NCBI GenBank assembly: GCA_029238175.1
Contig: JAQWGO010000173.1
Coordinates: forward strand, 1-32,447
Source: Henriciella sp.
GTDB taxonomy: Bacteria; Pseudomonadota; Alphaproteobacteria; Caulobacterales; Hyphomonadaceae
Length of the DNA stretch: 32,447 nt
Direction of reading: 5' to 3'
The notes under the pieces were generated by a model. The model was not told the DNA's origin. It saw only the letters and a program-made list of their open reading frames with translations, and did no database searches. This document shows, one piece after another, positions 6,120-30,896 of the stretch. A program made the position numbers and the translations under genes. Each line of letters starts with the position of its first letter. Within the stretch, counting starts at the first letter, position 1.

Positions 6120-6131
6120 CCCCATCTGGGT
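6120..6131. promoter_or_regulatory. Palindromic operator, site A (CCCC-ATCT-GGGT)
   Basis: The core CCCCATCTGGGT lies 11 bp before the ATG at 6142, and the left flank AACCCT matches the stronger sites. The best -10-like hexamer at the usual distance is TCTATT (6156-6161, 33 bp from the dyad centre). That would put the transcript start near 6168, inside the annotated reading frame. A transcript from this site would favour the later TTG start at 6193. Confidence 0.5.
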
Positions 6132-6141
6132 AATAGCCTTT

Positions 6142-6330
6142 ATGAATAAGACGGGTCTATTGGCGCTCTTTCAAAATGACGGGGCCGAGAAATTGATTTG
6201 GTTTTTGTTAGGGGTTTTTGTCGGGGCAAATCTTGGTATGTTGTGCATGGCAATGCTCTACTTTGCGGGAGGAGATGAACCAGAAGTACCGAACCAAGAC
6301 CATTCTCCTTGGGGCAAAAGCCTGCATTAG
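6142..6330 (+). CDS. Small single-pass membrane protein
   Basis: A 62-residue ORF with one strong hydrophobic segment (LIWFLLGVFVGANLGMLCMAMLYFA, about residues 19-43; shown as consecutive pieces LIWFLLGVFVGAN and LGMLCMAMLYFA) and a short acidic tail ending GKSLH. The ATG at 6142 has no clear ribosome site. An in-frame TTG at 6193, preceded by GGGGCCGAG, would give a 45-residue protein beginning at the membrane segment and agrees better with operator site A. No function is recognised. The 277 bp that follow, to 6607, hold no gene I can support. Confidence 0.45.
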   Translation: MNKTGLLALFQNDGAEKLIWFLLGVFVGANLGMLCMAMLYFAGGDEPEVPNQDHSPWGKSLH

Positions 6331-6607
6331 ATTGAGCATATCGCTACCAGCGATCTCCAAAATCCATGCAGTTTGTTCTCGCTCCCCAGCGACAATCAAG
6401 ACTGTTGAAGTAAGCAGAGAAAATTAATATTAAACATGGCAGTCTATGCAACGCCGAATACGTGCAGCAGAGCCACAGAGCGCCGGACGGGCGGACGAGA
6501 CTCTTGAACAAGCGCCGGAGATAATAGCGCCCATGGTCAGACGTTTACCTCGTTTTTGGTCGATGTGAAGACCGACTTTCATTGCGAAGCAACAGGTCAG
6601 CTCTGTT

Positions 6608-7057
6608 TTGTTCCCGCAACGCGGCGATGCGAGCGGTTTAAACAGTAAACGAAGGATCAGAAAAATAGCCCACAAAATCCTATTTCGTTGCGTTTTAGCG
6701 CTTACGATAGTGCTGCAAGTGACGGCGCCTGCGGGGTTTGCTGAATGGCAATCAGGCCAAATAAATATCCATGACATTTATTGCACGCCATCAGGTGATC
6801 TGTCTGATGCTGCAAAAACCGCGACTGAACGTCTGTTAAAGATACTCGAAAAAGTGCCGGAAGATGAAGATGGCGCCCATTCGGGGCACTGTTCGCTCTG
6901 CGCTCTGTCTGCAATGGCGGTACTGCCCGACTTTGTCTTGTATCATTCCAGCCTAACTTATTTGTTCAAGCGCGACGTTCCTCGCTATGAACCTGGACTG
7001 ATACATCGTCCAAACGGCCCGCCTCTAGGCTCTCGAAGCCCGCCGTCGCGCATCTGA
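6608..7057 (+). CDS. DUF2946-like exported protein beside a copper receptor
   Basis: This reading frame of up to 149 residues begins with TTG at 6608; no ATG or GTG occurs early in the frame, so the start is uncertain. A basic N-terminus (SKRRIRKIAHK) precedes a hydrophobic segment (FRCVLALTIVLQVTAPAGFA). The C-terminal half has HCSLCAL near residue 111 and ends in a Pro/Arg-rich segment with RPNGPPLGSRSPP. A Cys-x-x-Cys or His-Cys pair plus a terminal GPP motif is the DUF2946 pattern. These proteins often sit next to TonB-dependent copper receptors, as here. A role in copper handling is inferred from context only. Confidence 0.55.
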   Translation: MFPQRGDASGLNSKRRIRKIAHKILFRCVLALTIVLQVTAPAGFAEWQSGQINIHDIYCTPSGDLSDAAKTATERLLKILEKVPEDEDGAHSGHCSLCALSAMAVLPDFVLYHSSLTYLFKRDVPRYEPGLIHRPNGPPLGSRSPPSRI

Positions 7058-9863: not shown

Positions 9864-10601
9864 ATGAAGTCTGTTAATCAAGTTCCAGTGTTTTTGTTTT
9901 CTCCAGTAATATTATCAGCGTTTATTGCCTGTCTGATTTGGATATCCGCAGCGCCAGCGCTCGCATTAGATAACCAACTGGATTTTGAACAGGTCTCGGG
10001 GCTGATCACGACGATATCAGTGATTACGGCCATCCCTACATTTCTTCTGCTTCATGCATTTGCGTTGAAGCGACACAAATGGGAGCTGGAGTTGACCGGG
10101 TATGCGACAACTGATCCGCTTACAGGCGTACTTAATCGCCGGGCATTCCTCATGTCTATCGAAGAAGAGCAGACGCGAATGAGAAGAACCCGCGCCGGCG
10201 CCTCAATTTTGCTTTTTGACCTGGATTTCTTCAAGCGAATTAATGATCAGTTCGGTCATTCCAATGGCGACGAAGTGCTAAAAACGGTCTGCGAGATCGC
10301 CCATAGTGAACTGAGAGGACCGTTCGATCGAATTGGCCGATGGGGCGGCGAAGAATTTGTAATACTCCTGCACAATTTGACGCAGCATCAAGCGGCACAC
10401 GTTGCTGAGCGACTGCGCCTGAGAATACAGCATCACGACTTCGCCCATACGAACGGCCAATTGGATGTTACTGCTAGTTTTGGCGTTGCGCCCATGACTG
10501 CTTCTTGTGAGATAAGTTCGGTTTTCGACCGCGCAGACGAGGCATTATATATAGCCAAAGCAAAAGGTAGAAACCGGGTCGTCTTGTTGTCGGCAGAATA
10601 A
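9864..10601 (+). CDS. Membrane diguanylate cyclase (GGEEF)
   Basis: This 245-residue enzyme would make cyclic di-GMP from two GTP. ATG 9864 is chosen because AAGGAG (9849-9854) lies nine bases before it; earlier in-frame ATGs lack such a site. Two hydrophobic segments (about 8-34 and 44-66) anchor it and enclose a very short periplasmic loop, so there is no obvious sensor domain. The catalytic domain has the TDPLTGVLNRRAF entry motif (83-95), FDLDFFKRINDQFGHSNGDEVL (shown in part) and the active-site loop RWGGEEF (159-165). The inhibitory I-site appears as RGPFD, with one extra residue between Arg and Asp, so feedback inhibition may be lost. Cyclic di-GMP commonly controls matrix production, which suits a curli-carrying region. 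Confidence 0.9.
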   Translation: MKSVNQVPVFLFSPVILSAFIACLIWISAAPALALDNQLDFEQVSGLITTISVITAIPTFLLLHAFALKRHKWELELTGYATTDPLTGVLNRRAFLMSIEEEQTRMRRTRAGASILLFDLDFFKRINDQFGHSNGDEVLKTVCEIAHSELRGPFDRIGRWGGEEFVILLHNLTQHQAAHVAERLRLRIQHHDFAHTNGQLDVTASFGVAPMTASCEISSVFDRADEALYIAKAKGRNRVVLLSAE

Positions 10602-10795
10602 AGCGGCCAAGCACCAAGCGGCCGTGTCAGTGAACATTTTATCCAGTGCGCAATGCTTTGGGACACGTGCACGTCTAAGCAACTATACATCACTGTTCAC
10701 ATTGGATTTGGAGATACAATATTTGATGCTCCGTTCGGGACACATGTTAGCTCGCGTTCTCAGCTCGCCGATCACGTGTGTGTAAAGTAATGGAA

Positions 10796-10875
10796 CGCGA
10801 CCGGGTACGTGCTTTGGCTAGGTGGGGGACGTAGATAAGCACTTCGCAGAAAGGGGCTAGCTACGCCCGGTCGCG
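10796..10875. repeat. Long inverted repeat, possible structured RNA
   Basis: Perfect 10-base arms CGCGACCGGG (10796-10805) and CCCGGTCGCG (10866-10875) enclose 60 bp. Inside, GTGCTT and AAGCAC form a second pairing, giving a branched fold. It lies between the cyclase gene and operator site B with no ORF of its own. It may be a structured RNA, a 3' element of the cyclase transcript or the remains of a mobile element. It matches no riboswitch or ribozyme I know. Confidence 0.45.
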
Positions 10876-10909
10876 AGAATCAATTACGCGCTGCTCCATA
10901 AGAATGCAC

Positions 10910-10927
10910 CCTCCCCATTTGGGGAGG
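10910..10927. promoter_or_regulatory. Palindromic operator, site B (best copy)
   Basis: CCTCCCCATTTGGGGAGG is the most complete copy of the motif: perfect 8-base arms around two central bases. The dyad centre (10918.5) is 36 bp from the TATGCT hexamer at 10952-10957. It precedes the NepR-like gene at 10987 and is well placed for an activator at about -43. Confidence 0.7.
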
Positions 10928-10951
10928 TATCAAAAAAAACGCGTTAAACAT

Positions 10952-10957
10952 TATGCT
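10952..10957 (+). promoter_or_regulatory. -10-like hexamer TATGCT for the NepR-like gene
   Basis: TATGCT matches the -10 consensus at four of six positions and lies 36 bp from the centre of operator B. It predicts transcription starting near 10964, with a leader of about 23 bases. There is no good -35 box, as expected for an activator-dependent promoter. Confidence 0.45.
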
Positions 10958-10986
10958 TGCGGCGATGTAACGCTTGGAGATAACGC

Positions 10987-11184
10987 GTGACCAACATTCC
11001 GGCGCGTAGAGTTGAAAAAATAGCGCAAGATCTGCAAGCAGATCGTTTGACCAATATGAAAAGCTTTGAGCGCGAAATCAAAGCAAAATATTCCAAGATC
11101 ATATCTGAGCCTCTTCCTGACAAGCTTCTTGAGACGATTGAAGCTATTAGGACCGAGGAAAAACGAAACGCTGAACAGAAATAG
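10987..11184 (+). CDS. NepR-like anti-sigma factor
   Basis: A 65-residue protein beginning with GTG, set by GGAGA at 10976-10980. Residues about 26-55 (EREIKAKYSKIISEPLPDKL then LETIEAI) match the NepR core, in which the family has a pattern like LR-x-x-Y-x-x-V-x-x-EPVPDRF-x-x-LL. NepR proteins hold the general-stress sigma factor EcfG inactive until the response regulator PhyR, once phosphorylated, captures them. Neither PhyR nor EcfG is encoded nearby, so this may be a paralogue acting from a distance. Operator B and a -10-like hexamer sit upstream, suggesting that expression follows the regulon described here rather than autoregulation by EcfG. Confidence 0.7.
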   Translation: MTNIPARRVEKIAQDLQADRLTNMKSFEREIKAKYSKIISEPLPDKLLETIEAIRTEEKRNAEQK

Positions 11185-11210
11185 ACAAGTTAATAGCAGC
11201 TGAATTCATC

Positions 11211-11227
11211 AGGCCCTTTTGGGGAGG
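11211..11227. promoter_or_regulatory. Palindromic operator, site C, before a candidate sRNA
   Basis: AGGCCCTTTTGGGGAGGT carries the core GCCC-TTTT-GGGG (11213-11224, centre 11218.5). A perfect TATAAT lies at 11250-11255, 34 bp from the centre. This site and -10 pair is among the strongest in the window, and only a structured non-coding stretch and a terminator follow it. Confidence 0.65.
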
Positions 11228-11249
11228 TCGAAACGATCAGCCGGGTCGC

Positions 11250-11255
11250 TATAAT
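11250..11255 (+). promoter_or_regulatory. -10 box TATAAT
   Basis: This is a consensus TATAAT 34 bp downstream of the operator C centre, with no ORF downstream before the terminator at 11328. It predicts transcription starting at about 11262. Confidence 0.6.
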
Positions 11256-11261
11256 ATCTAG

Positions 11262-11356
11262 GCGGTTCGTTGAAAACTTTTTTCAATGCTCCATGACATA
11301 CGAACCGTGTAATGTAAAAACTCAAATACCCCCGGAATTTTTCCGGGGGTTTCTTT
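11262..11356 (+). ncRNA. Candidate small RNA of about 95 nt
   Basis: The predicted transcript runs from the TATAAT promoter to an ideal terminator. Its 5' half folds into a stem GGTTCGT (11264-11270) with ACGAACC (11300-11306), enclosing a hairpin TGAAAA/TTTTCA (11271-11285) with a three-base loop. The single-stranded stretch between the stems (about 11307-11327, GTGTAATGTAAAAACTCAAAT region) could pair with target mRNAs. No reading frame of useful length is present. Operator C upstream implies control by the same regulator as the oxidase and GspG. I do not recognise the RNA family. Confidence 0.6.
11328..11356 (+). terminator. Strong intrinsic terminator
   Basis: A perfect 10-bp stem, ACCCCCGGAA (11328-11337) with TTCCGGGGGT (11341-11350), has a three-base TTT loop and is followed by TTCTTT. 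It ends the candidate sRNA. Confidence 0.9.
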
Positions 11357-11451
11357 ATGAGTTGTCCTCAGCCGAAGGAAAAACGGTTGAAGAAAAGGTG
11401 ATATTTGAGATGTCGGTCTTTGTAGTCATATCAAAACATTAGCATATAAAT

Positions 11452-11496
11452 CTGGCGGTTGACCCGTTTCAGGAGCCGCCAGTTTCTCGCTGTTTT
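11452..11496 (+). terminator. Second terminator-like hairpin
   Basis: CTGGCGG (11452-11458) pairs with CCGCCAG (11476-11482). TTTCTCGCTG and then TTTTTT follow. The T-run starts eight to ten bases after the stem, so it may be a weak or back-up terminator. No gene upstream of it apart from the sRNA is apparent. Confidence 0.4.
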
Positions 11497-11570
11497 TTGA
11501 CTCGGTCGACCCTTGCTTGAAAAGGTGGTCCATCGGGTTTGTTAGTCCGGCGGTTTCCACGTAGCGGCGT

Positions 11571-12401
11571 TCATGCTGCTACACCTCCACTGTACGGCAG
11601 TATGAACGCCGCGGGCAAGATGGCTTCGGGGGCCGGTGGTTTATAGCCAAGCGATGAATGCGGACGGATCGTGTTGTAGTGATGTCGCCAGCCTTCGATT
11701 AGGGCTTTAGCTTCGCGTAGATCATAGAAGATTTCTCGGGCCAGCAACTCGTCTCTGAGCTTTGAGTTGAAGCTTTCACATTAACCATTCTCCCATGGAC
11801 TTGCCGGTGTGATGTAAAGCGTCTTCACACCAATGTTGCCGAGCCATTCCCTAAGCGCGATGGCGATAAACTCGGGACCATTGTCTGATCGGATGTGCTC
11901 TGGCGCGCCATATCTGACGAACAGTTCGCCCAGCACGCCTAAGACATCACGAGAGTTGAGCCTTCGCTCGACACGGATCGCGAGACACTCCCGCGTATAC
12001 TCATCGATCACGCACAGCATTCGGAAGACCTTGCCGTCATGCGTGCGATCCTGGACGAAATCATACGACCAGACATGACCTTTGTGTGCAGGCCTTAGCC
12101 GCACACACGAACCGTCATTCAGCCACAACCGGCTGCGCTTTGGTTGTTTCATTGGAACTTTAAGCCCTTCACGTCGCCAGATGCGGTAGACCCGCTTCTC
12201 ATTCACATGCCAGCCGTCTCGTCTCAGAAGAGCCGTGATCCTGCGGTAACCGTATCGACCGAACCGTTCGGCCAGATGGATGATTGCCGCCGTCAGATGA
12301 TCTTCGTCTTCGCGAACGACCTTCGGCTTGCGCTGGGTGGAACGATGCTGGCCGATCACGCGGCAGGCCCGGCGTTCTGAGACGCCCAGCTCCTCTACCA
12401 C
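11571..12401 (-). pseudogene. IS3 transposase OrfB with an internal stop codon
   Basis: This is the DDE integrase-core half of the IS3 transposase. The minus-strand frame reads GYRRITALLRRDGWHVNEKR and VWSYDFVQDRTHDG (first Asp), then RSDNGPEFIAIALREW (second Asp) and TPASPWENG, where a TAA stop falls (11781-11783). The same frame continues as CESFNSKLRDELL... and RPHSSLGYKPPAPEA to a TGA at 11571. The normal protein has Tyr at the stop position, so a single base change (TAT or TAC to TAA) explains it. The catalytic Glu lies two codons beyond the stop, so the truncated product lacks a complete DDE triad. I place the 5' limit at the GTG 12401, although the natural product is made by frameshift from OrfA. 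Confidence 0.85.
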
Positions 12402-12433
12402 GTGATCGACGGCAATGCGTTTGCGTGAAGGGC

Positions 12434-12709
12434 TTAGAACTTTCCCCGCACGACTTCTTGAAGGATCTGATTGTCCAGTGTGAGATCAGAGACGGCGCGG
12501 CGTAGCCGCGCATTCTCCTTCTCAATCTCCTTCATCCGCTTGGCCTGGCCGACCTGAAGGCCGCCATACTCTTTGCGCCAACGATAGTAACTCTGCTCCG
12601 TCACGCCTATCGCGCGCGCCGCTTGCGCAGCGGTCTCGCCACGTGCGAGGCGAACCTCAACCTCACGCAGCTTCGCGATAATCTCTTCAGGCTTCAATCT
12701 CTTGCCCAT
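12434..12709 (-). CDS. IS3 transposase OrfA (helix-turn-helix protein)
   Basis: The 91-residue first frame of the IS3 element begins MGKRLKPEEIIAKLREVEVR. It has a DNA-binding helix-turn-helix (AAQAARAIGVTEQSYYRWRK, about residues 27-46) and a leucine-zipper-like C-terminus (EIEKENARLRRAVSDLTLDN). It binds the element's ends and normally fuses to OrfB by a -1 frameshift at GGGGAAAG just before its stop. It is intact, unlike OrfB, and on its own could only act as a repressor of transposition. Confidence 0.9.
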   Translation of the reverse strand: MGKRLKPEEIIAKLREVEVRLARGETAAQAARAIGVTEQSYYRWRKEYGGLQVGQAKRMKEIEKENARLRRAVSDLTLDNQILQEVVRGKF

Positions 12710-12851
12710 GTCTCAGCTCCATATTTGAAGCCGGTACTAACTCAAATTATGGGCCACTTTACTGGGGGCACACCAATAGCATTAAATCGCCTAAAATACT
12801 ATTATTTTATCACTTGAGATTTGCGCCAAAGGCGTGCCGATAGTGCAATGA

Positions 12852-12884
12852 AATGTCGGACAAGCAAACTCTTTATCCGACATT
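12852..12884. repeat. Perfect inverted repeat beside the IS element
   Basis: AATGTCGGA (12852-12860) and TCCGACATT (12876-12884) are perfect 9-base arms 15 bp apart. There is no T-run, so a terminator is unlikely. A regulator site or the remnant of an older mobile element are possible explanations. Confidence 0.4.
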
Positions 12885-13088
12885 CTCTATTCGTATGACC
12901 TTTCCGCAATCAAAATTTTGAATGGGCGCAGAGCGCATACAATCTGTAATCCGCGTCGCGCTTCAGACATGACAAAACGAAATCTGTCTTGCTGTTCTTA
13001 TCGACCATGCCCTGCTCCCAGAAAACTGGCTGCGCTACAGGGCGGGTCAATGGCATCTTCTTTACAGTTAACAAAGCGTTTGGATGCG

Positions 13089-13103
13089 CCCCCAAGAGGG
13101 GGG
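13089..13103. promoter_or_regulatory. Palindromic operator, site D
   Basis: CCCCCAAGAGGGGGG is a strong G/C dyad with the core CCCC-AAGA-GGGG (centre about 13095.5). It lacks the AT-rich centre typical of the others and the -10 match is poor on both strands (TGTAAA on the minus strand at 32 bp). It is a weaker member of the set. Confidence 0.4.
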
Positions 13104-13194
13104 ATAGCGGTTTTTGCGTGAATGAGGCAAACAGATCTCGCGGTCGTAGAAAGCGGCCGCGATTGCTCGAAGCATGTCCCCCCATTGAGCAGCA

Positions 13195-13224
13195 GGGACC
13201 TTCACATCCGCCCGTGAAGGTCCC
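13195..13224. repeat. Perfect 11-bp hairpin
   Basis: GGGACCTTCAC (13195-13205) and GTGAAGGTCCC (13214-13224) enclose an 8-base loop. Neither side is followed by a T-run, so it is not a standard terminator. It lies between operator sites D and E and its role is unknown. Confidence 0.45.
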
Positions 13225-13280
13225 CAATCGCCGCAAAATGCAATATACATTGCGGCTTTGCTGCGATCTCAAACGGCTTA

Positions 13281-13295
13281 CCCCATTTGGGCAGG
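13281..13295. promoter_or_regulatory. Palindromic operator, site E
   Basis: CCCCATTTGGGCAGG has the core CCCC-ATTT-GGGC with its centre at 13286.5. TATCGT (13320-13325) lies 36 bp downstream; the octamer TTATCGTG recurs downstream of site H. It predicts transcription starting near 13332. Confidence 0.6.
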
Positions 13296-13356
13296 CATAC
13301 AATGTAATCGGCAATGAGTTATCGTGATTAATGAAGAAACAGCCGAACCCGAGAAG

Positions 13357-13548
13357 ATGATCAGAATTCCAAGAAATGTGCAGTCTTTCGGGCGCGCTAT
13401 GATCGTGATCCCCGCGATAATAGCGTTGCCAACAAACAGTGCGAAATCAGCCGGCTTTGACGAAAACTCGGCCGTACTCATCCTGGAAATGTGTGGCTCG
13501 GAAAGCAAAACGATCCGATTAGACCTGCGGTCTCAAAGCCCTAAATAA
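13357..13548 (+). CDS. Small putative exported protein downstream of operator E
   Basis: The frame opens with GTG 13324, but the start predicted from operator E lies beyond it, so ATG 13357 is preferred (63 residues, preceded by GAGAAG). Residues about 12-32 are hydrophobic (GRAMIVIPAIIALPTNSAKSA) in part and could be a signal peptide. The rest, VLILEMCGSESKTIRLDL, resembles small DUF2946-like exported proteins with a single Cys followed by an -IRLD- strand. The resemblance is by eye. No gene neighbour explains it. The roughly 210 bp that follow hold no gene I can support. Confidence 0.4.
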   Translation: MIRIPRNVQSFGRAMIVIPAIIALPTNSAKSAGFDENSAVLILEMCGSESKTIRLDLRSQSPK

Positions 13549-13762
13549 CGGCCAGTTTATTAAGCGGGATAGCATAGGCGCGACAAACTCGATCGTGTCA
13601 TATTTGATTTTGCTTGAACAAGCACTGCCAAGATCTGTGAGGCGCCACATATTTTTTTAAGTCGCGCCGAGCCGCTAATGAACGGTGAAACCAAAACGAT
13701 GTCATTACAAGGGATACAACTCGGCGCGCGGAGATGATAAACCATCGGTCACTGACCCTCAG

Positions 13763-13782
13763 CCCTCCCCATTAGGGGGAGT
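13763..13782. promoter_or_regulatory. Palindromic operator, site F, upstream of gspG
   Basis: CCCTCCCCATTAGGGGGAGT has the core CCCC-ATTA-GGGG (centre 13772.5). GATACT at 13805-13810 lies 35 bp from the centre and predicts a start near 13817, about 128 bases before the gspG start. The site carries both outer flanks of the full motif. Confidence 0.65.
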
Positions 13783-13816
13783 TTAGATGCGCAAAAAATA
13801 GGCTGATACTGAAACA

Positions 13817-13874
13817 GAAAGGGGATGGCTGGTGTCGGGTGACTAAGGCAATGTGGGCGCGCATCTCCCCTTTC
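13817..13874 (+). ncRNA. Hairpin leader or candidate small RNA after operator F
   Basis: GAAAGGGG (13817-13824) pairs perfectly with CCCCTTTC (13867-13874), and ATG/CAT extends the stem past a two-base bulge. The left arm begins at the predicted transcript start. No strong T-run follows, so it may be a stable 5' leader of gspG mRNA rather than a separate RNA. Confidence 0.35.
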
Positions 13875-13944
13875 CTTAATTAGAACGCAACGTATTGCAT
13901 GTTATGGACACATCAGACCCTGTAAGATGATGGAAGACATTAAG

Positions 13945-14367
13945 ATGATTACCGATTTGAAAACGAGCCGCGGCCGAGCAAGCAAGCGGCGCCAGAGTGG
14001 CTTCAGTCTGATAGAAGTGCTGATAACGTTGCTGATCCTGAGTTTGGTTGTTTCTATAACTGCGCCGAGATTGATCGGACAGTTATCGCGCGCAAAAACG
14101 CAGGCAGTTACGGTGCAGATTAAAAATCTTGAGGCCGCGATAGACTTATTTTTGATAGATACTGGACGATACCCGACGAGCGAAGAAGGGTTAGGGGCTC
14201 TGATTGACAATACCCAAAATATTTCTGGCTGGTCGGGGCCCTATCTGAAAGATAAAGAGGTGCCGTTGGACCCTTGGGGACAACCTTACCAACTCAGACG
14301 CATAGACAGCGGGTTTGGAATTGAAGTATTCTCGCTCGGGGCGCCAGATGATTCTGAGCAATCCTGA
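13945..14367 (+). CDS. gspG: Type II secretion major pseudopilin GspG
   Basis: GspG forms the periplasmic pseudopilus that pushes substrates through the type II secretion channel. The prepilin site is clear: RRQSG^FSLIEVLITLLIL with Glu at +5. The C-terminal half has the GspG hallmarks LEAAIDLFLIDTGRYPTSEE, GPYLKDKEVPLDPWGQPYQ and SLGAPD. ATG 13945 is preferred because GGAAG lies eight bases before it; ATGs at 13927 and 13930 lack a ribosome site and would lengthen the leader. It is alone here: GspH, GspI and GspJ lie at 31-32 kb, where GspG would normally sit just before GspH. Operator F upstream links it to the same control as the oxidase. Confidence 0.9.
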   Translation: MITDLKTSRGRASKRRQSGFSLIEVLITLLILSLVVSITAPRLIGQLSRAKTQAVTVQIKNLEAAIDLFLIDTGRYPTSEEGLGALIDNTQNISGWSGPYLKDKEVPLDPWGQPYQLRRIDSGFGIEVFSLGAPDDSEQS

Positions 14368-14459
14368 GCATGAATGAAGGTGTTAGGACTGCTTTATCGG
14401 CGTCGCCTGGGCGTGACCAATTGTTCCCTAAAGACTATTTTGCCGGTCTGATGTCTTGG

Positions 14460-15071
14460 TTAGATGAGGCCATCTTCGATAGCGCGCACAACCACCTCAG
14501 TTCTGTTCTTTGCGCCAAATTTTAGCAGAAGCGTTTTGATGTGAGCTTTCACAGTTTCGGGCGACAAATCTGCGGCCCTTGCGATTTCTTTGTTAGACAT
14601 CCCTTCTTTGAGCAAATTGACAATATCATGTTCTCGCGGGCTTATTTTTCGATCCACCCAGTTGTATTTTTTCGAAAAATCCTCGAACCAATTCGGGTCC
14701 GCTTTGAAATTTACAACCGTGTCCATCAGCGCCCGGTAAAACTGCTCGCCGATATAGCTTTTCGGGATATAGGCGTTAAATCCGGCAAGCTTAGCATCTT
14801 GCAAGTCTACTAAGTTCGCGTGCCCGGAAATTAGAATGTTTGGACAGTGTCTTGTAAGGCGCATGAGCTTTGAGCGAGTTTCGTCGTCATTCATGCCTGG
14901 CATGCGCAGGTCCGCCACAAGCGCGTCAAATGGACCCTCGTCTTCCAAGACAATACAGGCTTGGCCGGCGGATGCGACACTGATCGGCTTGATTGCAGGG
15001 TTTGCGTGCGTCAACAGCAAGCATATCGCGTCGGCAACAAGAGAATGGTCATCAGCTATTAATAGTTTCAT
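14460..15071 (-). CDS. NarL/FixJ-type response regulator
   Basis: A 203-residue transcription regulator with an N-terminal receiver (ADD at 6-8, phospho-acceptor D54 in VADLRMPGM, K104 in YIPKSY). Its C-terminal LuxR-type helix-turn-helix spans about residues 143-203 (ISPREHDIVNLLKEGMSNKE, then ETVKAHIKTLLLKFGAKNRT). Its start overlaps the end of the upstream hybrid kinase by 20 bp, so the two are co-expressed and presumably partners. Members of this family usually bind palindromes of about 20 bp, often at -40 or so. It is therefore the best candidate to bind the CCCC-N4-GGGG sites, including site G upstream of its own operon. That link is inference. Confidence 0.9.
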   Translation of the reverse strand: MKLLIADDHSLVADAICLLLTHANPAIKPISVASAGQACIVLEDEGPFDALVADLRMPGMNDDETRSKLMRLTRHCPNILISGHANLVDLQDAKLAGFNAYIPKSYIGEQFYRALMDTVVNFKADPNWFEDFSKKYNWVDRKISPREHDIVNLLKEGMSNKEIARAADLSPETVKAHIKTLLLKFGAKNRTEVVVRAIEDGLI

Positions 15072-16626
15072 TCTTTTCCACCCGGTACCGTGTTAGGGCC
15101 CGCTCAACTTCCGCAACAAGGTTATCTAGATCTATAGGTTTGGGGACAAAAGCATCGAAAAGTCCGCCCTTTGCGACCTTTTTGACCCCGGAGTAAGCAA
15201 TTACAGGCGCACTGGGACGAACACTCTTGAAACGAGCCGCAACCACGACGCCATTCATCTCGGGCATATGAAAATCTGTTATGAGCAGATCAAAACAATT
15301 GAGATCGGCGCTAAAAAAAGCTCTTCCGCTCGAAAATACTTCTGCTGATAGCCCCCGGCGTGATAACACCCCTTGGATAAGGGCGCCAGAGAGCGGATCA
15401 TCGTCAATAATCGCGATATTCGCGGCAACGCTTGGCAGCAGCTCGCTATAATCAGCGTCATGCAACACCGAGGAGACATCCAGCCTCGAGCCTGCCTCTT
15501 TGGTGCTTTCTCTCAGCCATATTGTTAGCTGGGTGCCTTCCTCAGGAGCGGAGGCGACTTCGAGCGCGATCGCCCCTAGTTCCAAAAGCTGTGTGAGGCT
15601 GCTCAATCCCAAGCCGTGGCCTTCGGGATTTTCTTTGGTTGTGTAACCGTGGCGAAAAATATGCGCCAGCTCTTGTTGAGAAATGCCGTAGCCATTGTCG
15701 GTGACTTCCAAAACCCATGTACCATCGGTCTCTGCGCGCCCTATCATGTGTCGCGGCCAATCCGGCGCAACGCGCTTCGTCGCCAGTTTTAGCTCGACAT
15801 CAATAAGACCGCCAAGCTCCATAGCAGCGTCGCTGTTTTGAAGCATATTGATGAGCGCGCGTGTTAAACTGAGCCCGGGCAGAGGCGTTAGAACCGGGTG
15901 TTCTGGTAAACTGACTCTTATATGAGTTTCCGGTTTCACAAGTCCTTTTGAAATCGTGATGCCAGACGTGATCGCCTGCACAGCGTCTTCCACAAATGAT
16001 AGGTCTTCGTCATAGACATCGCTGCTCATCTCTTCGATGATTGAAAGCGCGCTTTTGTTGGATCTTACGATTGCGTCAATATACCCCTGATAGTCCCCAT
16101 TGCTGTCATCCTTTTTAAGAAGCAACTGAGAATATCCAACCGATGCAGATAAAACGTTGGCTAAGTCATGCGCTAAAGTCGATATTGTACTGCGGTAAAC
16201 ACTGAGGGCTTCTGATTTACGAAGCTGCTCTTCATCGCGGCGGATACGCCTCTCTAATTCAACACGCTTGGTAATGTCGCGCGTCGAACACAGCAGTCCG
16301 CCAGTAGAAATGGCATCAAGAAAAACTTCCTGGAATACAAGCTCTCCGGACTTATTTCGGCCAGCCAGCTCCCCGCGCCATACCCCCTTCTCAGCGACAA
16401 TCGGGAAAACTGTTTCTTTGATTTGTTTCACAGTCTCGTGATCGTAGAGTTTTTCCCAGCTTTCACCAATCAGCTCTTCGTCATCGTACCCGAACATTTC
16501 TTGGTGCGTTTGATTCATGAATATGAACATTCCATCGGCACACGTTACAGCAATGGCGCTAGAGGTCTGTTCCAAAATAGCCGGCAAATCGATCAAACTT
16601 GTTCGATTTTGATCTGTATCATTCAT
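15052..16626 (-). CDS. Hybrid sensor histidine kinase (PAS-HisKA-HATPase-REC)
   Basis: A 524-residue soluble kinase without signal peptide or membrane segment. Residues about 17-125 form a PAS sensor with a short PAC tail (CSTRDITKR). The phospho-acceptor is H153 in STLAHDLANVLS. ATP binding is supported by the N box (N264 in NMLQNSDAA), DNGYGIS (310-316) and GHGLGLSS. A C-terminal receiver has IIDDD near 407-410, D451 in ITDFHMPEMNG and a Lys in FVPKPID. It would start a phosphorelay ending on the NarL-type regulator whose gene overlaps its 3' end. Operator site G and a -10-like hexamer lie upstream, suggesting positive autoregulation. Confidence 0.92.
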   Translation of the reverse strand: MNDTDQNRTSLIDLPAILEQTSSAIAVTCADGMFIFMNQTHQEMFGYDDEELIGESWEKLYDHETVKQIKETVFPIVAEKGVWRGELAGRNKSGELVFQEVFLDAISTGGLLCSTRDITKRVELERRIRRDEEQLRKSEALSVYRSTISTLAHDLANVLSASVGYSQLLLKKDDSNGDYQGYIDAIVRSNKSALSIIEEMSSDVYDEDLSFVEDAVQAITSGITISKGLVKPETHIRVSLPEHPVLTPLPGLSLTRALINMLQNSDAAMELGGLIDVELKLATKRVAPDWPRHMIGRAETDGTWVLEVTDNGYGISQQELAHIFRHGYTTKENPEGHGLGLSSLTQLLELGAIALEVASAPEEGTQLTIWLRESTKEAGSRLDVSSVLHDADYSELLPSVAANIAIIDDDPLSGALIQGVLSRRGLSAEVFSSGRAFFSADLNCFDLLITDFHMPEMNGVVVAARFKSVRPSAPVIAYSGVKKVAKGGLFDAFVPKPIDLDNLVAEVERALTRYRVEKNETINS

Positions 16627-16675
16627 TAGGAACCCCTCGCGAACTGTTCATGTTGGATTTAAGCAAATTTTATGC

Positions 16676-16681
16676 CTTATC
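16676..16681 (-). promoter_or_regulatory. -10-like hexamer GATAAG for the hybrid kinase operon
   Basis: Read on the minus strand, GATAAG matches four of six -10 positions and lies 35 bp from the centre of operator G (16713.5). It predicts transcription toward the hybrid kinase, starting near 16669. Confidence 0.35.
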
Positions 16682-16694
16682 CGATAAGAGTTAG

Positions 16695-16700
16695 TATAAA
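16695..16700 (+). promoter_or_regulatory. -10-like hexamer TATAAA for the H-NOX operon
   Basis: TATAAA on the plus strand predicts a start near 16707, inside operator G. A protein bound at G would therefore be expected to block this promoter while activating the opposite one. No good -35 box is visible. Confidence 0.35.
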
Positions 16701-16705
16701 TGAAC

Positions 16706-16725: not shown

Positions 16726-16743
16726 GGCTTTGGAGACAGTTTA

Positions 16744-19205: not shown

Positions 19206-19243
19206 TTATTCTTGAGAACATATATGGTGTAGCTGGGTCGACC

Positions 19244-20318: not shown

Positions 20319-20441
20319 ATGCAGATCACGATCGCAACAACGACCCGGATCACGGGGCTGGGTCACGGACAATTCTGTTCTGAAGGAGCTTGCCTTAAAA
20401 AGACTTCTAAGGCCCGGCGCCAAGGTCGCATTTTAAAGTAA
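20319..20441 (+). CDS. Possible 40-residue basic peptide
   Basis: The roughly 430-bp stretch after operator I has no convincing long gene. A frame from ATG 20319 encodes MQITIATTTRITGLGHGQFC and then SEGACLKKTSKARRQGRILK, a basic peptide with two Cys. A weak GGAG lies upstream. It overlaps other short frames with equal claim, so it is listed only as the best candidate product of a transcript from site I. Confidence 0.2.
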   Translation: MQITIATTTRITGLGHGQFCSEGACLKKTSKARRQGRILK

Positions 20442-20450
20442 AATCAGCAT

Positions 20451-25080: not shown

Positions 25081-28000
25081 TCAGTTCCCACCGAACAGAT
25101 TGAGCAATCCACGAAGTCGGTCCTCTGAAGGCTCCTGCGCCTCAACGGTCGGCTCTTGCGGCGCACGCTCTGGGTCATAATCGACCGCTTGCTGCCCAGC
25201 GATCTCTGCTGGACCTGCGGCTGTAACGGGGTCACCCTCTACTCGGAGCAAGCCCCACAAGCCGTTTTGATTTCCGAAAGACGCCAGATCCCGGTACAGG
25301 TAGTCACCCGGCACTCTCATCGGACCGCCTGCTTTGGTAATAATATTCCAAGCCGCTGGTGGCAGAATATTGTCTTGGGTTGACATCATACGCTGCCCCT
25401 CGGTTACACCCATCGTATCTGATGGGAAGTTCTTGGAGACAAATGGCATATTGTTCCAATTGTGCCCCAGAATACCGAGCGTGGTGCCGCGGGCGTAACC
25501 TGATGGACTTGTCACACGGAAACGTGTTTCCTCACCCGGGCGTGCTGTATAGATCGGCGTCTCCGGATCACCGCCATGCAGTACGTTCGAGTAGGCCTTA
25601 TACATGTCAGGTATTGTCGCAAGGCCGGCATCACTTCCGTTAAAGCCTGCCTCTTCGCCGCCAAGCCCCCAATCGGCGCCGGCATCAAATCCGTATCTGA
25701 ACCAAAGCGGTTCGACCGTCAAATTGATACCTGCAGCGCCACCATCGTGGGCGTCTTCAGGCACTCCGAAACCTTCACCCGCGATGTTCGGGACCGGTGA
25801 ACCGTCGCCATACCGAAGGTTTACCGCTTTGTGGAACAGCATCGCAAAATCGCGGAAGGAGGAGGTCCCGTCGGCCGAAGTTACGGTACCTTGCACCCTT
25901 GTCCCCTCGTCGGCGACAAAAGATGACCCTTCCGGAAGGATGTGAACCTGCCCAAACAGACCCTTTTGTCCCTGTTTGATAACATCTGCCGGTTGGATTG
26001 GAGCCACGCCGTACTCAACTGGATTATAGACTAGATTGAACCGGTCTCCATCCAACGCGCCCGTTCCCACTGAACCGGCACGCGGTCCCAGCTCCAGATC
26101 ACCGGCATAGTAGCGATACGTCCGTGAGCCACCAGGCGCGACCGTTTGCACAGGATTGATCCCAACATTCATACCGTCATCGCGAGAGATGTCATACTCC
26201 ATGAGCTGAGTGTGAAACCCGACATGGCTCGAAGCTCTGATAAGGTTATTGTTGAATGTTGTAGGACCTTGAGGATCATTGCGATCGCGGATCACCACGT
26301 AGTGCTGGGTCACAAAAGAGGCCAAATCAGGCACTTTCTCCGGCAACCTGTTGCGCAGCGTAACCTCGAGACATTGACCCGCGTTTACCCGCAGAACCAG
26401 AGGCTCAAACTTGTAATTGTTTGGAACCTTGACCGGACAACGAGGATTGGTGACCCCGCCATCGCGGTCGCGGCACAGTTTACGATCCTCAGGGGTAGAG
26501 ATATCCTTTCGGAGATCTTCTGTTGGGACGTAGACCAAAGCCGTTGGATCGTGCAGCGGCCCTTGCTCGCCGTTGCGCAGCCGCACACGCTTGGAGTTAT
26601 AAACCAGAGTACCACCTTCAGGGTCCGGCAGCGCTCCGACGTGCATACGCGATGTATAATCAGACGGAACAATCGAAACGTTGCGCGGCGCCTTGGTGAT
26701 ATCGTTCACCGCGACCGCCGTAACGTCGTAAGATGCGACATCAGCATTGGCTGGACAAACCCCATTGAAGTCTCTGCGGTTGGCGATCGATATGGAGTTA
26801 TCCCGGGCATTATTGGGCAACGCAGCCAAGTCTCTTTGCGCGGTATCATAGGACCGAAGAACGCCCCATGTTCCCGTCCAGAATCCTTCTTGCGAGGCAT
26901 CCCAAGCGTACAGATAGTCAGATACGTTCTGGGCCTCATCCACATCACCAAAGATCGACGTTGCGAATGACGCTTTTTCAGAAAGCGCGACCTGCATGGA
27001 GGATTTCCAGCCAGAGTTTGGCGCAAATCCAAATGAGCCGCCACCTTCCAGCCACTTAACACCATTAATCGACGCGCCGTGCTCGTGCTCATGCGCCCCC
27101 GCCTGCAACCGTACCCGAACCAGATCGCCGGCATTGGCCCGCATAATTGGCGTGAATGGGTCACCGTCACGCACATCGGCGGTTAATTCCGTGTACGGCG
27201 TTGCACCGGTTTTTGTGTTAAACTCCTGCATCACACGGTCAGTTCGGGTTTGCAGAGCAAAAGACAGGTCTCCTGCGAGCCCATCGGCTTGCGCGCCTGG
27301 CTTATTGTCTGGCCCGGTCTTGTTGGGATCGTAAACCCGGTACCCCACAGGCTCGTTGCGATAGTTGATTACGAATGTACCAATATCAGCTGCGGACACC
27401 GCCTCCGGGCACGGCCGAGGGACACCGCCCGGGCACGTTGAATGGAAACGCGCAGCATCCGGAAACGAAGCGGACTGTCTATGGGACGGGTTTATCGCAT
27501 ACCGGAACGATTCAGACGTTGGTGGAACCGGCACGCCGTTCTCGTCAACCCCTGCATAGACGCCCTTATTGTAAGCGTGAGCGAAGTCTTGAGCCTCCAA
27601 GTAGAATTCGCGGTAGCTGTCATCGGAGCCATCGCCATCAATATCGCCGGCGAGGATGACAGCTTGCCAGGATGTCGGCCCGCCATCGTGGCGCGTGTAC
27701 AACTCCTCCCCTGACTCGTTATGCAACCAGCGCGATCCTGCAGGATTGATCAACAAAGTCGCGTAAAGACCGATTTGCTGGTGCGTACTTGGACCAAAAT
27801 GGTCGTGCGTAAATGTAATCCCCAAGCCGCGGTCGACACCATCAAGATCATGCAATGGATCGACAAACCAACGCTGTATATTGGTGCGCGCACCAAGGTA
27901 CTCGCCACCTGATCCAGTGCCAAAATACGGGTGCGGCTGAGCGGCCAAAGGCGCGTCGTCGAGCTGATTTTCAGCGACGTAGCGATTGATCGCATCAATC

Positions 28001-30825
28001 CGATGACGAACAGCCTCAGCACCCAGGACACCGTCCTCATAATTCCAGCCATTGCCGGCACCGTCAGCGGATACAAGGTCCCATTTCGGCAGGTGGATAT
28101 GTTGCCCGATCACGTCTGTTGGAGTCGTGACCTGATAATCGTCAACATAGTAATATTCAGGCACCAGGTTGGTGTGAATAAAGTTCGCGCATTCGTATGA
28201 GTTTAGGCGCATAACAAACGGCTCTGGTGGGCGCGTTTTATTCAGGGTTGGCTCGACATCATCCCAGAGGGCAAGAATGCGCTGCTGGGGATAGTGATCA
28301 CCAGCCTTGTTGAAGACAACATCGAGTTGGATATTGGCCGCCTTATAAACGCGTGGGTTATCAGCGCCAAACTCGGCAACCGCGGTATTGTCGGTTGCCC
28401 CTTGGTCTGCTGACAAGAAGTGTCCCACCTGCCCGGTTAAAAAAGGGCTCCCGCGATCATCCATACATGGCTCGAAGAATGGCGCACCGGGGGTCGGCAA
28501 ACCGCTATTGGTACGGAACATCGCTTCTTGAACAGTCCCATCTAGCAATAGCCGCGTGGACGGGTGCTCTCCGCGCGAGTGGAAAGACATTGCAGCCCGC
28601 TCCCACTCAGTTCCGAACTCGCTGAAGTATACCGGCTTTGCCGAGTCGATATGCTTGGCAAATGACAGGCGGGTTTCTTCCGAGTGGGTTTGCCCCCCAA
28701 CAGCGTACCCATCCAGCGCGTGACGGGGCAAGCCGCCGTCCCAGCCGCCCTCTGTTGGGTTCTCGGCATTCATAGCCATGTCCAGCGGCGGCGTTGGCGC
28801 GCGTTGACCGACAATTGTATCAATGCCAGCGACCCAGAACGGGTAGCCGGGGTTCTTTAACCCTTTTGGATTGAGTTGATTTTCCCGCTTGTTCGGCAGA
28901 GAAGCAAGGACAGTTCTTTTGTCGCGCAATTGCGGATCACGATTGCTGACCCCTGCAGGAAGTTTTGCCTGGCTCGACTCCGCAACGCCGTCACCGTCCT
29001 TATCAACAGCCTCTACAAAAACGGTCGCAGGCATCGGCGCCATGGGCTTCCCAGGCAGCGGAATGAGCGCAGGGATAGGAACACCCGCAACAATCTCGCC
29101 GTCCGGCAAAGCTCGCGAGCGCTTCGCTGGACGCCCGCTGCCGAGAGCGTTTGGTGAGGTATGGAAGCCCTCCTCATCTGTACTCACGTCCAGACGCGTG
29201 CCCGCCTCGAACACATCATGGTTTCGCCATAGCGCCCACATGCCTTGCGCAAAGTGGGGATAGAAATGGCAATGATAGATCGCATCGCCGGCCGACTTGT
29301 TACGGTTGCCCGAGCCACCGAACGCGATCTCATATGTGTAGGCGCCGCCCGGACCAATCGATTGCGCATCGAGATAGTTCGAATCGTCATCGTCTGGATT
29401 GGAGAGCCACTGATGGTTGTGGAGGTGAAAAACGTGATGCTCTTTCGGGCCTGCGTGCAGGTTTCTGAACTTAACAAAATCACCAATGTAGGAATGTGAA
29501 ACGTTTGATGGATCGGAAGGATATTTGGCATGATCAGCACGGATTGACTCATCTCGCTCGCAGTTTTTGTCTCCGGGCTGCGGGGTGCAGTATTCTAGGC
29601 CAGCGTTTGCCGGGACATCGACCAGCATTGCCGGATCGCCCACAGTGAATGATGACAGAAAGAACTCCTCATAAGCGCAGCTCAGGCAATCATGCATCGG
29701 ACCAACCCCAAGGCGATTCGCAATTACCTCGGACCCGACGCCAGCAGCACCATAATTGATCATGAAATTATCGCCAACACCGTGCAGCGTGTGCTCAAAA
29801 ACAGCGTCTTCATACCAGCCTGGAAAAGCTTGCTTGGAAACGGTTTCATCGTGAAAGATCACAACAAATTCGCGAAAGGCTTCCAACCGGTTTGGCAAGG
29901 CAGGATTGCGCTTGCCGGTTGCCTCAAGTGGGTAGGTTTCAGCCGGAAAGGACCCATCTGGGTTGGGCCCGACAATCATCCCATTGACTTCGTTGTGAAC
30001 AATCTTGAGGCGGCCATCTTGTGATTGCAGCATATTTAGGACCGGCCGGCCTGCGAGCCCCTCCTCAATCCAGGGCGAACGATTGGGGAAGGTCGCTTCG
30101 TAGTCAATCATGGGGTGCCCGGTTGAAGTTGTCCCTTTCGTTGCGAGACGCATCTCCTCTTCAGTCACCTGGCTCCGGTAAAATTTGGCACCCTTTGGCT
30201 CTACGACCACTGCGCCAAAGAGGCCATTGCCGATGTTTCCGCCAGCGCCCTCACCGCCAAAAGTTGCGCCATGCGACACGACAATATACTGACCCTCTTT
30301 TTCAGCGTAAAATGTGTATGTCTCGCTTTGCCCAGGCTGGACCAAGCTGTTTTCGTTTCGGCCAACAAAAGACGCGGTGCTTTTGACACTATCGGCGACC
30401 GGAAGACCAAAAGGAGAGAACCCAGCCGTTCGGTCGCTGACTTGATCGTTAATCTTCAGGATTGAAGGCTCGGCATTGTTAGGGTTTGCAACTGAGCTCA
30501 GAAGGTTTTCGAAATTGACCTGCAGGCAGTCGCCTTCTCGAACTCTCAACACGATCGGACGGGGCCGCTTATCGGAGCGCAGGCGAACTTCCCCGTAACG
30601 CAATGGAGCCTCGCTGTCTGAGCTCGACGACACGACATCGTCTCTCAAAGCGTACATCATGCCATTAACGTTTTGCGCGCCCAGTCTATTAAACATGAGC
30701 GGCTGATCGATCGCAACAACATCTGCCTCAACTGTCCGCTCGCAGGACTGACCATGGGCAAGCTGTGACGACAAGCCTACGAGTGCCGCAAACCCAACAA
30801 ACAAAGATGTAAAATTCTTTCGCAC
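25081..30825 (-). CDS. Giant multicopper oxidase, MnxG/manganese-oxidase type
   Basis: A 1,914-residue exported oxidase. GTG 30825 is chosen because AGGAGA (30832-30837) precedes it and it yields a signal peptide ending AHGQ; an upstream TTG at 30879 has no such support. Copper motifs are clear: HLHNH (H467-H471), YHCHFYPHF (H518, H520, H524), QHIHLPKWD (H909, H911), THDHFGPSTH (H1007, H1009) and HEHEHG (H1245-H1249). The C-terminal cupredoxin has YLYRDLASFG where HCH would stand, so it is probably structural. Size and motif spacing resemble MnxG of Pseudomonas putida (about 1,960 residues), which oxidises Mn(II). Two SCO chaperones downstream and type II secretion genes upstream fit an exported copper enzyme. 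Substrate is inferred, and other metal or organic substrates remain possible. Confidence 0.88.
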   Translation of the reverse strand: MRKNFTSLFVGFAALVGLSSQLAHGQSCERTVEADVVAIDQPLMFNRLGAQNVNGMMYALRDDVVSSSSDSEAPLRYGEVRLRSDKRPRPIVLRVREGDCLQVNFENLLSSVANPNNAEPSILKINDQVSDRTAGFSPFGLPVADSVKSTASFVGRNENSLVQPGQSETYTFYAEKEGQYIVVSHGATFGGEGAGGNIGNGLFGAVVVEPKGAKFYRSQVTEEEMRLATKGTTSTGHPMIDYEATFPNRSPWIEEGLAGRPVLNMLQSQDGRLKIVHNEVNGMIVGPNPDGSFPAETYPLEATGKRNPALPNRLEAFREFVVIFHDETVSKQAFPGWYEDAVFEHTLHGVGDNFMINYGAAGVGSEVIANRLGVGPMHDCLSCAYEEFFLSSFTVGDPAMLVDVPANAGLEYCTPQPGDKNCERDESIRADHAKYPSDPSNVSHSYIGDFVKFRNLHAGPKEHHVFHLHNHQWLSNPDDDDSNYLDAQSIGPGGAYTYEIAFGGSGNRNKSAGDAIYHCHFYPHFAQGMWALWRNHDVFEAGTRLDVSTDEEGFHTSPNALGSGRPAKRSRALPDGEIVAGVPIPALIPLPGKPMAPMPATVFVEAVDKDGDGVAESSQAKLPAGVSNRDPQLRDKRTVLASLPNKRENQLNPKGLKNPGYPFWVAGIDTIVGQRAPTPPLDMAMNAENPTEGGWDGGLPRHALDGYAVGGQTHSEETRLSFAKHIDSAKPVYFSEFGTEWERAAMSFHSRGEHPSTRLLLDGTVQEAMFRTNSGLPTPGAPFFEPCMDDRGSPFLTGQVGHFLSADQGATDNTAVAEFGADNPRVYKAANIQLDVVFNKAGDHYPQQRILALWDDVEPTLNKTRPPEPFVMRLNSYECANFIHTNLVPEYYYVDDYQVTTPTDVIGQHIHLPKWDLVSADGAGNGWNYEDGVLGAEAVRHRIDAINRYVAENQLDDAPLAAQPHPYFGTGSGGEYLGARTNIQRWFVDPLHDLDGVDRGLGITFTHDHFGPSTHQQIGLYATLLINPAGSRWLHNESGEELYTRHDGGPTSWQAVILAGDIDGDGSDDSYREFYLEAQDFAHAYNKGVYAGVDENGVPVPPTSESFRYAINPSHRQSASFPDAARFHSTCPGGVPRPCPEAVSAADIGTFVINYRNEPVGYRVYDPNKTGPDNKPGAQADGLAGDLSFALQTRTDRVMQEFNTKTGATPYTELTADVRDGDPFTPIMRANAGDLVRVRLQAGAHEHEHGASINGVKWLEGGGSFGFAPNSGWKSSMQVALSEKASFATSIFGDVDEAQNVSDYLYAWDASQEGFWTGTWGVLRSYDTAQRDLAALPNNARDNSISIANRRDFNGVCPANADVASYDVTAVAVNDITKAPRNVSIVPSDYTSRMHVGALPDPEGGTLVYNSKRVRLRNGEQGPLHDPTALVYVPTEDLRKDISTPEDRKLCRDRDGGVTNPRCPVKVPNNYKFEPLVLRVNAGQCLEVTLRNRLPEKVPDLASFVTQHYVVIRDRNDPQGPTTFNNNLIRASSHVGFHTQLMEYDISRDDGMNVGINPVQTVAPGGSRTYRYYAGDLELGPRAGSVGTGALDGDRFNLVYNPVEYGVAPIQPADVIKQGQKGLFGQVHILPEGSSFVADEGTRVQGTVTSADGTSSFRDFAMLFHKAVNLRYGDGSPVPNIAGEGFGVPEDAHDGGAAGINLTVEPLWFRYGFDAGADWGLGGEEAGFNGSDAGLATIPDMYKAYSNVLHGGDPETPIYTARPGEETRFRVTSPSGYARGTTLGILGHNWNNMPFVSKNFPSDTMGVTEGQRMMSTQDNILPPAAWNIITKAGGPMRVPGDYLYRDLASFGNQNGLWGLLRVEGDPVTAAGPAEIAGQQAVDYDPERAPQEPTVEAQEPSEDRLRGLLNLFGGN

Positions 30826-30850
30826 GAGATTTCTCCTAATGTAACCACCT

Positions 30851-30856
30851 ACTATA
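30851..30856 (-). promoter_or_regulatory. -10 box TATAGT for the multicopper oxidase
   Basis: TATAGT on the minus strand matches five of six -10 positions and lies 34 bp from the centre of operator J. It predicts transcription from about 30844, giving a 19-base leader with the AGGAGA ribosome site. Confidence 0.6.
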
Positions 30857-30878
30857 TCAGAGTGGCTATTCACAAGCA

Positions 30879-30896
30879 ACCCCCCTTTTGGGTGGG
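30879..30896. promoter_or_regulatory. Palindromic operator, site J, before the oxidase
   Basis: ACCCCCCTTTTGGGTGGG has the core CCCC-TTTT-GGGT (30882-30893, centre 30887.5). It is the only dyad in the 118-bp gap between gspJ and the oxidase. Confidence 0.6.

Follow-up and report, generated by a model that had tools for sequence, protein, structure and literature searches.

The locus analyzed here can be set beside several described systems. The NarL operator has a 7-2-7 arrangement, in which two inverted TACYNMT-type heptamers flank a 2-bp spacer. CsgD, the master regulator of curli in Enterobacteria, is a FixJ/LuxR-type protein that is not known to keep the normal receiver residues of a response regulator. 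NarL of E. coli is reported to activate ogt from −44.5 (PMC7419079). In the H-NOX biofilm-signaling systems of Caulobacter, Vibrio, and Shewanella, H-NOX is found beside a hybrid kinase, and deletion of hnox in C. crescentus is reported to raise biofilm formation (PMC10746521). PraR, an XRE-type protein, is described as a repressor of attachment (PMC4149787). In Pseudomonas putida GB-1, a two-component system comprising MnxS1/S2 and MnxR has been proposed to switch the MnxG oxidase, and the promoters involved in this control are reported to have predicted IHF and sigma-54 sites (PMC11930936).

The stretch of DNA considered here (the window, 32,447 bases) is the whole of contig C168 from a 2.85-Mb Henriciella genome in 181 contigs. 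A preliminary description of the window proposed that a recurrent CCCC-N4-GGGG dyad marks an undescribed regulon, and this interpretation is supported for a local set of genes rather than for a wide genome regulon. The description of the site as novel rests on searches of an open-access library, in which no listed title or abstract opening described it or its association with these genes. Our preferred reading, to which we give a probability of ∼0.6, is that the dyads are putative operators through which a NarL/FixJ-family regulator encoded at 14460–15071 controls matrix and attachment genes. The parts are of known kinds; the regulon is well supported, its cargo is unusual, and its binder is putative.

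Like NarL, this regulator combines a receiver with a GerE domain, and the palindromic CCC/GGG sites would lie near the −44 position known from ogt. The spacing of the CCC/GGG blocks is that of NarL 7-2-7 sites, and TACCC-type half-sites are present at 13277 and 16704, but most copies have CTCCC. The system differs from NarL in its GC-rich half-site and its matrix and oxidase neighbors, and the regulator falls far below the NCBIfam cut-offs for NarL (73.1 of 250) and FixJ (70 of 255) and also below that for CsgD (43.0 of 250 bits). As with CsgD, a FixJ/LuxR-type protein is encoded beside curli genes, but here the normal receiver residues are kept. H-NOX again neighbors a hybrid kinase; in contrast to the described H-NOX systems, it is tied to a predicted DNA-binding regulator, to dyads, and, in six loci of relatives, to genes resembling those for holdfast anchors (hfa). 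An XRE-type protein in a biofilm context recalls PraR. Unlike the GB-1 promoters, the oxidase dyad of the window precedes a sigma-70-like −10 element.

Gene Content of the Window

The window is a matrix-type island in which regulatory genes lie between curli, pseudopilin, SCO1-like, and oxidase genes. Family matches place csgF, csgG, and three curlin-repeat genes at 1232–5613 (+ strand). The gene at 13927–14367 (+) encodes the major pseudopilin GspG (TIGR01710, 103.3 bits; cut-off of 88.85), three further proteins carry an N-methylation signal, and two SCO1-like proteins and one beta-propeller protein are also encoded. A giant multicopper oxidase gene occupies 25081–30825 (−, start predicted). 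Its ORF of 1932 residues has MnxG, the manganese-oxidizing multicopper oxidase, as the only strong family (NF041487, 2255 bits over model positions 1–1894 of 1894, below the cut-off of 3100). The protein is classed as MnxG-like, and its host is a possible manganese oxidizer.

The proposed binder of the dyads (14460–15071, −) has both features that define NarL/FixJ membership, a Response_reg domain above cut-off (47.2 bits) and a GerE domain (58.3 bits; cut-off of 23.5). Receiver residues Asp7, Asp54, and Lys104 are invariant, and Ser82 nearly so, in 10 aligned homologues. The adjoining gene (15052–16626, −) encodes a PAS hybrid histidine kinase with PAS, HATPase_c, and receiver domains above cut-off and a HisKA match of 26.5 against 26.9. 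A YxSxR motif together with a proximal histidine characterizes H-NOX, the haem-NO-binding protein. Accordingly, the protein encoded at 16744–17301 (+) belongs to this family (HNOB, 82.8 bits; cut-off of 25.5), with His105 and Y-x-S-x-R at 135–139 kept in 5 of 5 aligned sequences. The following gene (17298–18890, +) encodes a kinase-like protein with a receiver, related to the H-NOX-linked kinases of loci L127 and L130–L132 described below; unlike its relative in L131, and unlike the kinases of the described H-NOX systems, it has no recognizable HATPase domain. An XRE-family regulator, the rival binder, is encoded at 19473–19853 (−; HTH_3, 29.0 bits; cut-off of 23).

Among the proposed targets was a NepR-like gene, a likeness that proved weak: the 65-aa ORF at 10987–11184 (+) scores 17.0 bits against a cut-off of 25.7. 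Three RNA candidates with predicted ends lie downstream of dyads, all on the + strand. Candidates A (11261–11358, z −4.2) and C (19136–19210, z −7.3) fold better than 200 of 200 shuffles and end in terminator-like hairpins at 11328–11350 and 19175–19197, respectively; candidate B (13815–13884, z −1.1) is weak and does not. No Rfam family or tRNA was detected in the window. Two ORFs amid the dyad cluster, at 11781–12709, look by eye like an IS3-type transposase pair.

A Repeated Dyad in Noncoding DNA

The preliminary description listed about ten intergenic copies of one dyad, none seen inside a confident gene. A C-rich/G-rich dyad was present at all 10 positions, and nine of these, all noncoding, fit the one symmetric 20-bp matrix made from them, with leave-one-out scores of 11.8–25.0. 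The tenth, GCGCCCCCAAGAGGGGGGAT (13086–13105, no strand assigned), listed at 13089, was left out of the matrix and scores a marginal 10.8 on it; single weak dyads such as this may be chance products. Noncoding DNA makes up 5463 of the 32,447 bases (17%) by a gene list drawn from ORFs and family matches. Two sites meet the longest ORF calls: the dyad at 16704 lies inside one, although the probable start of H-NOX (16744) is downstream of it, and that at 30878 touches the longest oxidase call, for which the likely start is a GTG at 30825.

From left to right, CCCTCCCCATCTGGGTAATA (6116–6135, +, leave-one-out score of 15.9) precedes a 62-aa ORF at 6142 that matches no Pfam family above cut-off. 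The best copy, CCCTCCCCATTTGGGGAGGT (10909–10928, +, 25.0), has TATGCT at +34 from its center, and TCAGGCCCTTTTGGGGAGGT (11209–11228, +, 11.8) has TATAAT at +32. Further along lie CTTACCCCATTTGGGCAGGC (13277–13296, +, 15.3), with TATCGT at +34, and CCCTCCCCATTAGGGGGAGT (13763–13782, +, 21.1), which precedes an RNA candidate and gspG and has GATACT at +33. The dyad ACTACCCCATTTGGGAAGGG (16704–16723, no strand assigned, 18.2) is situated in the gap that separates two divergent gene pairs, regulator/kinase and H-NOX/kinase-like. An RNA candidate follows CTCCCCCCAAACGGGTAGTA (19084–19103, +, 12.9), which has TATCGT at +32. Upstream of the XRE gene is CCCTCCCCAATTGGGGGAGG (19997–20016, no strand assigned, 23.3), with no good −10 toward that gene, and upstream of the MnxG-like oxidase gene is the last copy (30878–30897, −, 14.5), with TATAGT at +32.

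Strict CCCC-N4-GGGG occurs at four places in the window against 0.33 expected, a number reached in 0 of 100 shuffles, and CCTCCCCATTTGGGGAGG with up to three mismatches gives six matches at four places against 0.01 expected. The full matrix gives 9 matches at scores of at least 12 (9 noncoding), 11 at 10 (10 noncoding), and 13 at 8 (10 noncoding); because the nine at 12 or above are the same sites that built the matrix, leave-one-out scores and the related genome G077 are fairer tests than these counts. In shuffled noncoding segments, matches of at least 12 averaged 0.11, with a maximum of 1 in 200 runs, so the motif is indeed commoner than in shuffled sequence. The nine-dyad repeat is thus confirmed as real. 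For the set as a whole, this excess effectively refutes an origin by chance from base composition; its recurrence at orthologous promoters (see below) and the presence of 4 of 22 strict genome places in this one contig also speak against chance. Those 22 places exceed a reversed control (13) only modestly, and CCTCCCC-N4-GGGGAGG with at most one mismatch occurs in 55 of 105 family genomes; the dyad sequence alone is therefore unspecific.

Two dyad copies, when folded, give stable 7-bp hairpins, and exact CCTCCCC-TGAA-GGGGAGG palindromes in three relatives (G065, G075, and G013) look like terminators. Even so, a role for the dyads as RNA hairpins, whether in termination or in leaders, is very improbable. 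An intrinsic terminator is a GC-rich stem followed by a T-run; most dyads have no following T-run (those at 6116 and 30878 were read by eye), and predicted starts lie downstream of them. A terminator scan of 10600–20500 gave no excess (13 versus 10.6) and one weak match at a dyad (16726–16705, minus strand).

Position of the Dyads Relative to −10-like Hexamers

The best TATAAT-like hexamer was sought around 14 oriented sites (eight in the window, three in G077, two in the relative G083, and one at C136 of the window genome), using generic −10 weights set by the analyst and rolled offsets for comparison; three ambiguous orientations of the 16704 and 19997 dyads were omitted. A peak of −10-like hexamers was observed 30–34 bp from the dyad center (p = 0.0065). 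The clear cases are the hexamers given above for the dyads at 10909, 11209, 13277, 19084, and 30878. Poor hexamers at this distance were seen for the XRE site of the window, the C136 site, and each of the three G077 sites. If transcription is assumed to start ∼12 bp downstream of where the −10 begins, dyad centers fall near −43, where NarL-type activators can work. The TATAAT at 11250–11255 (+), the likely −10 of RNA candidate A, is the best promoter-like match (10 of 12) in 10600–20500, a region in which a generic promoter scan found no excess (9 versus 10.1). The likely −10 of the oxidase gene is the TATAGT at 30851–30856 (−).

In the preferred reading, a dimer of the NarL/FixJ-family regulator would bind CCTCCCC-N4-GGGGAGG centered near −43, with CCC/GGG blocks at NarL 7-2-7 spacing, and would activate rather than repress the genes for the MnxG-like oxidase, GspG, the XRE regulator, and small ORFs, together with two or more small RNAs. 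Genes for the sensor and the regulator itself would probably belong to the activated set too. Input would come from the PAS kinase and/or from H-NOX (NO). Given that the kinase-like protein of the window lacks an ATPase domain and that the G077 island has no H-NOX, input from NO is a guess here.

Distribution of the Dyads across the Genome

By strict-pattern counts, the motif is local to the window contig. The genome has 18 strict matches beyond the window; of the 15 retrieved, 13 fall in ORFs of at least 141 aa, in contrast to the nine strong window sites, which precede genes and do not lie within them, as first proposed. A sequence-only site model gave nine rows at E ≤ 10 against its own genome: eight come from three window sites and C136:17696, each matched on both strands, and the ninth is C111:4041, within an ORF. 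The C136:17696 dyad is intergenic and lies upstream of an ORF with a PAP2 match just under cut-off (26.2 of 27.2); it has no good −10. Among the 150 of 727 matrix candidates scored, it is the sole convincing intergenic place seen outside the window, and a genome-wide regulon is not supported by these matches. At C132:13134, a strict CCCC-N4-GGGG with a matrix score of 11.8 lies outside any ORF of at least 60 aa, just upstream of a possible ATG, and is a possible further site.

BmrR, of the MerR family, has a site with CTCCCC half-sites. A regulator encoded elsewhere in the genome, for example of MerR or Crp-Fnr type, might also bind such dyads, and the Crp-Fnr protein RebR is reported to use a 4-base spacer as well, in G-T-R-M-C-N4-G-K-Y-A-C (PMC5527310). 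We consider this unlikely, as the motif is concentrated on the window contig in the manner expected for a local regulator, and none of the scanned window proteins has a MerR or Crp-Fnr domain. A MerR-type location of the dyads, between −35 and −10, was considered and rejected, the clearest hexamers being further downstream.

Conservation in Related Genomes

Most of the island is present in G077, a genome of the same genus, with identities of 78% for the oxidase, 73% for CsgG, 68% for CsgF, 64% for GspG, 60% for the XRE protein, and 47% for the regulator. The expectation that dyads would be kept at orthologous promoters holds there for the oxidase, gspG, and XRE genes, and another dyad lies between csgG and a curlin gene. 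Noncoding matches of at least 10 number four in G077 against 0.45 simulated (0 of 300 simulations), with three more inside genes. In the window, no dyad scoring at least 10 lies upstream of csgF, and the csgG loci of five relatives (six stretches) show no site of at least 10 in three stretches and scattered matches in the other three.

In G083, dyads are again found upstream of the oxidase and XRE genes. The regulator was not found there (best homologue 27%), which may reflect an assembly gap, the island contig starting just past the curlin genes. Oxidase homologues are present in 10 of 105 family genomes, and in the seven others the expectation fails: no upstream dyad reaches 10 (best scores of 3.2–9.7). 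Among the matches listed, the regulator homologues of six of these seven (G101 aside) are distant, with at most 30% full-length identity. A CCCTCCC-AAAAA half-site lies upstream of the oxidase gene in L192, L194, and L195, from genomes with no full dyad.

Regulator Loci and H-NOX

Loci chosen solely by homology to the 14460–15071 protein carry dyads of the same build, which supports the proposed co-occurrence of site and regulator. All seven regulator loci with H-NOX have dyads built as ACCTGWCC-N4-GGWCAGGT, and six of these adjoin hfa-like genes; three of the seven were retrieved once the pattern had already been recognized. In the six (L127, L130–L132, L216, and L218), the regulator gene follows the H-NOX and hybrid-kinase genes, H-NOX is preceded by a ACCTGACC-N4-GG(T/A)CAGG-type dyad, and HfaB-/HfaD-like genes lie across the dyad from it, with an HfaA-like gene too in L132. 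This divergent arrangement spans six genomes and two families. HfaA (48.9 of 50), HfaB (236–240 of 300), and HfaD (26–41 of 100) are the best NCBIfam matches in L132 and L216, all under cut-off. Assignment of the CsgG-like gene of the H-NOX loci to curli was dropped, as NCBIfam points to HfaB. The seventh locus, L217, from another family, has a perfect ACCTGTCC-N4-GGACAGGT immediately beyond the gene for the H-NOX-linked kinase, with the regulator gene ∼4.9 kb further on; no hfa gene was identified in it. In L215 and L219, two of five new regulator loci, neither H-NOX nor an ACCTGWCC dyad was found in the fetched stretch.

The dyads of L130–L132 were found by the window matrix (10.2–10.7) and those of the other H-NOX loci by palindrome scan. 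A point against the preferred reading is that the H-NOX dyads are not distinguished by the window matrix alone: other places in these loci reach equally high scores, and in L131 a site at 6500 scores 11.1, above the H-NOX dyad. The pattern CCTNNCC-N4-GGNNAGG unites all seven H-NOX loci with the best window site and gives four matches in 170 other loci (1.71 Mb), including two that repeat the dyad of G003. Across 398 genomes of the order, ACCTGWCC-N4-GGWCAGGT occurs in eight, at one place each; five of these are the source loci of the pattern, so this demonstrates rarity and not prediction. Exact CCTGACC-N4-GGTCAGG is present in 8 of 105 family genomes, in three at H-NOX loci; in G001 and G044, no related gene lies within the 1.8–3.0 kb viewed.

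For CTGACC-type dyads at six related-genome loci, amounting to about three related groups, −10-like hexamers peak at 30–34 bp in the direction of H-NOX (0 of 2000 rolls) and show no peak toward hfa. The asymmetry points more to a sensor operon that regulates itself than to a direct effect on hfa.

CCCC-type dyads were also found in L128 and L129, which contain sugar transferase, NusG-like, and phosphoesterase genes; that at L129 13016 scores 20.0 and the others 10.9–13.0. The recognition helix varies with the dyad, reading SPETVK or SPETIK with CCCC-type dyads, QETTVK with the CTGACC type, and AETTVK with CTGTCC. A tree built from 20 regulators joins the six CTGACC-type proteins with support of 100/99; the four CCCC-type proteins are joined at 88/90 only, and this join is flagged as a possible long-branch effect. 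The two types cut across species: the CTGACC type occurs in G003, which belongs to the genus of the window, and G058 carries both, at one locus each.

The main rival binder is the XRE protein of the window, which would regulate the island as well as the XRE gene; in other Alphaproteobacteria, PraR-type XRE proteins have such a role in attachment. Its gene co-occurs with CCCC-type dyads, a point against the preferred reading: a dyad lies upstream in all three genomes with a close (∼60%) homologue (G000, the window genome; G077; and G083), and a homologue is found near L128 and, via L128, L129. G083, which has dyads and the XRE gene, is also the genome in which the regulator was not found, perhaps owing to assembly. 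PraR itself, as noted above, acts on attachment; its reported sites differ, being CAAC-N5-GTTG (PMC5527310) and TTGCAA (PMC4149787), and the former is present in none of the 10 window dyads. Further evidence makes the XRE protein quite unlikely as the binder. No XRE homologue is found in the seven H-NOX loci with dyads of the same build. At the clearest promoters (11209 and 30878), the dyads are upstream of the likely −35, a position that would suit an activator more than a repressor. More distant XRE homologues occur in 101 of 101 genomes, and in the 17 such loci (L153–L169) the best score within ∼450 bp of either flank is below 10 in all but L156 (10.2).

A wider and more tentative scheme is possible, though doubtful. 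An H-NOX-linked, NarL-type family might serve attachment (holdfast anchor, exopolysaccharide, and curli) across the order, and in this lineage a change of half-site from CTGACC to CTCCCC, with a changed recognition helix, might have produced a private island operator coupling curli, the MnxG-type oxidase, pseudopilins, and small RNAs. NO could then gate a mineral-forming matrix.

For the Henriciella/Hyphomonadaceae group, the dyad supplies a concrete and testable candidate operator of one regulator family, and it is proposed as a transcriptional switch of an MnxG-type oxidase in bacteria other than Pseudomonas. In the H-NOX loci, this sensor is linked to a predicted DNA-binding output next to genes resembling those for holdfast anchors. 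The two regulator groups, which differ in half-site and recognition helix together and are both represented in G058, offer a natural test of site choice by GerE-type proteins.

Additional candidate sites were seen at regulator loci of other genomes. High matrix scores occur at the distant loci L061 (8250, 16.3) and L049 (9649, 15.2). In L216 (G194), two CCTGACC/CCTGTCC-type dyads, at 12613 and 12684, are separated by ∼70 bp close to the region upstream of H-NOX. Regulator homologues of Martelella (L046, ∼9810; L047, 9811) have a CTATCC-N4-GGATAG dyad ∼180 bp upstream.
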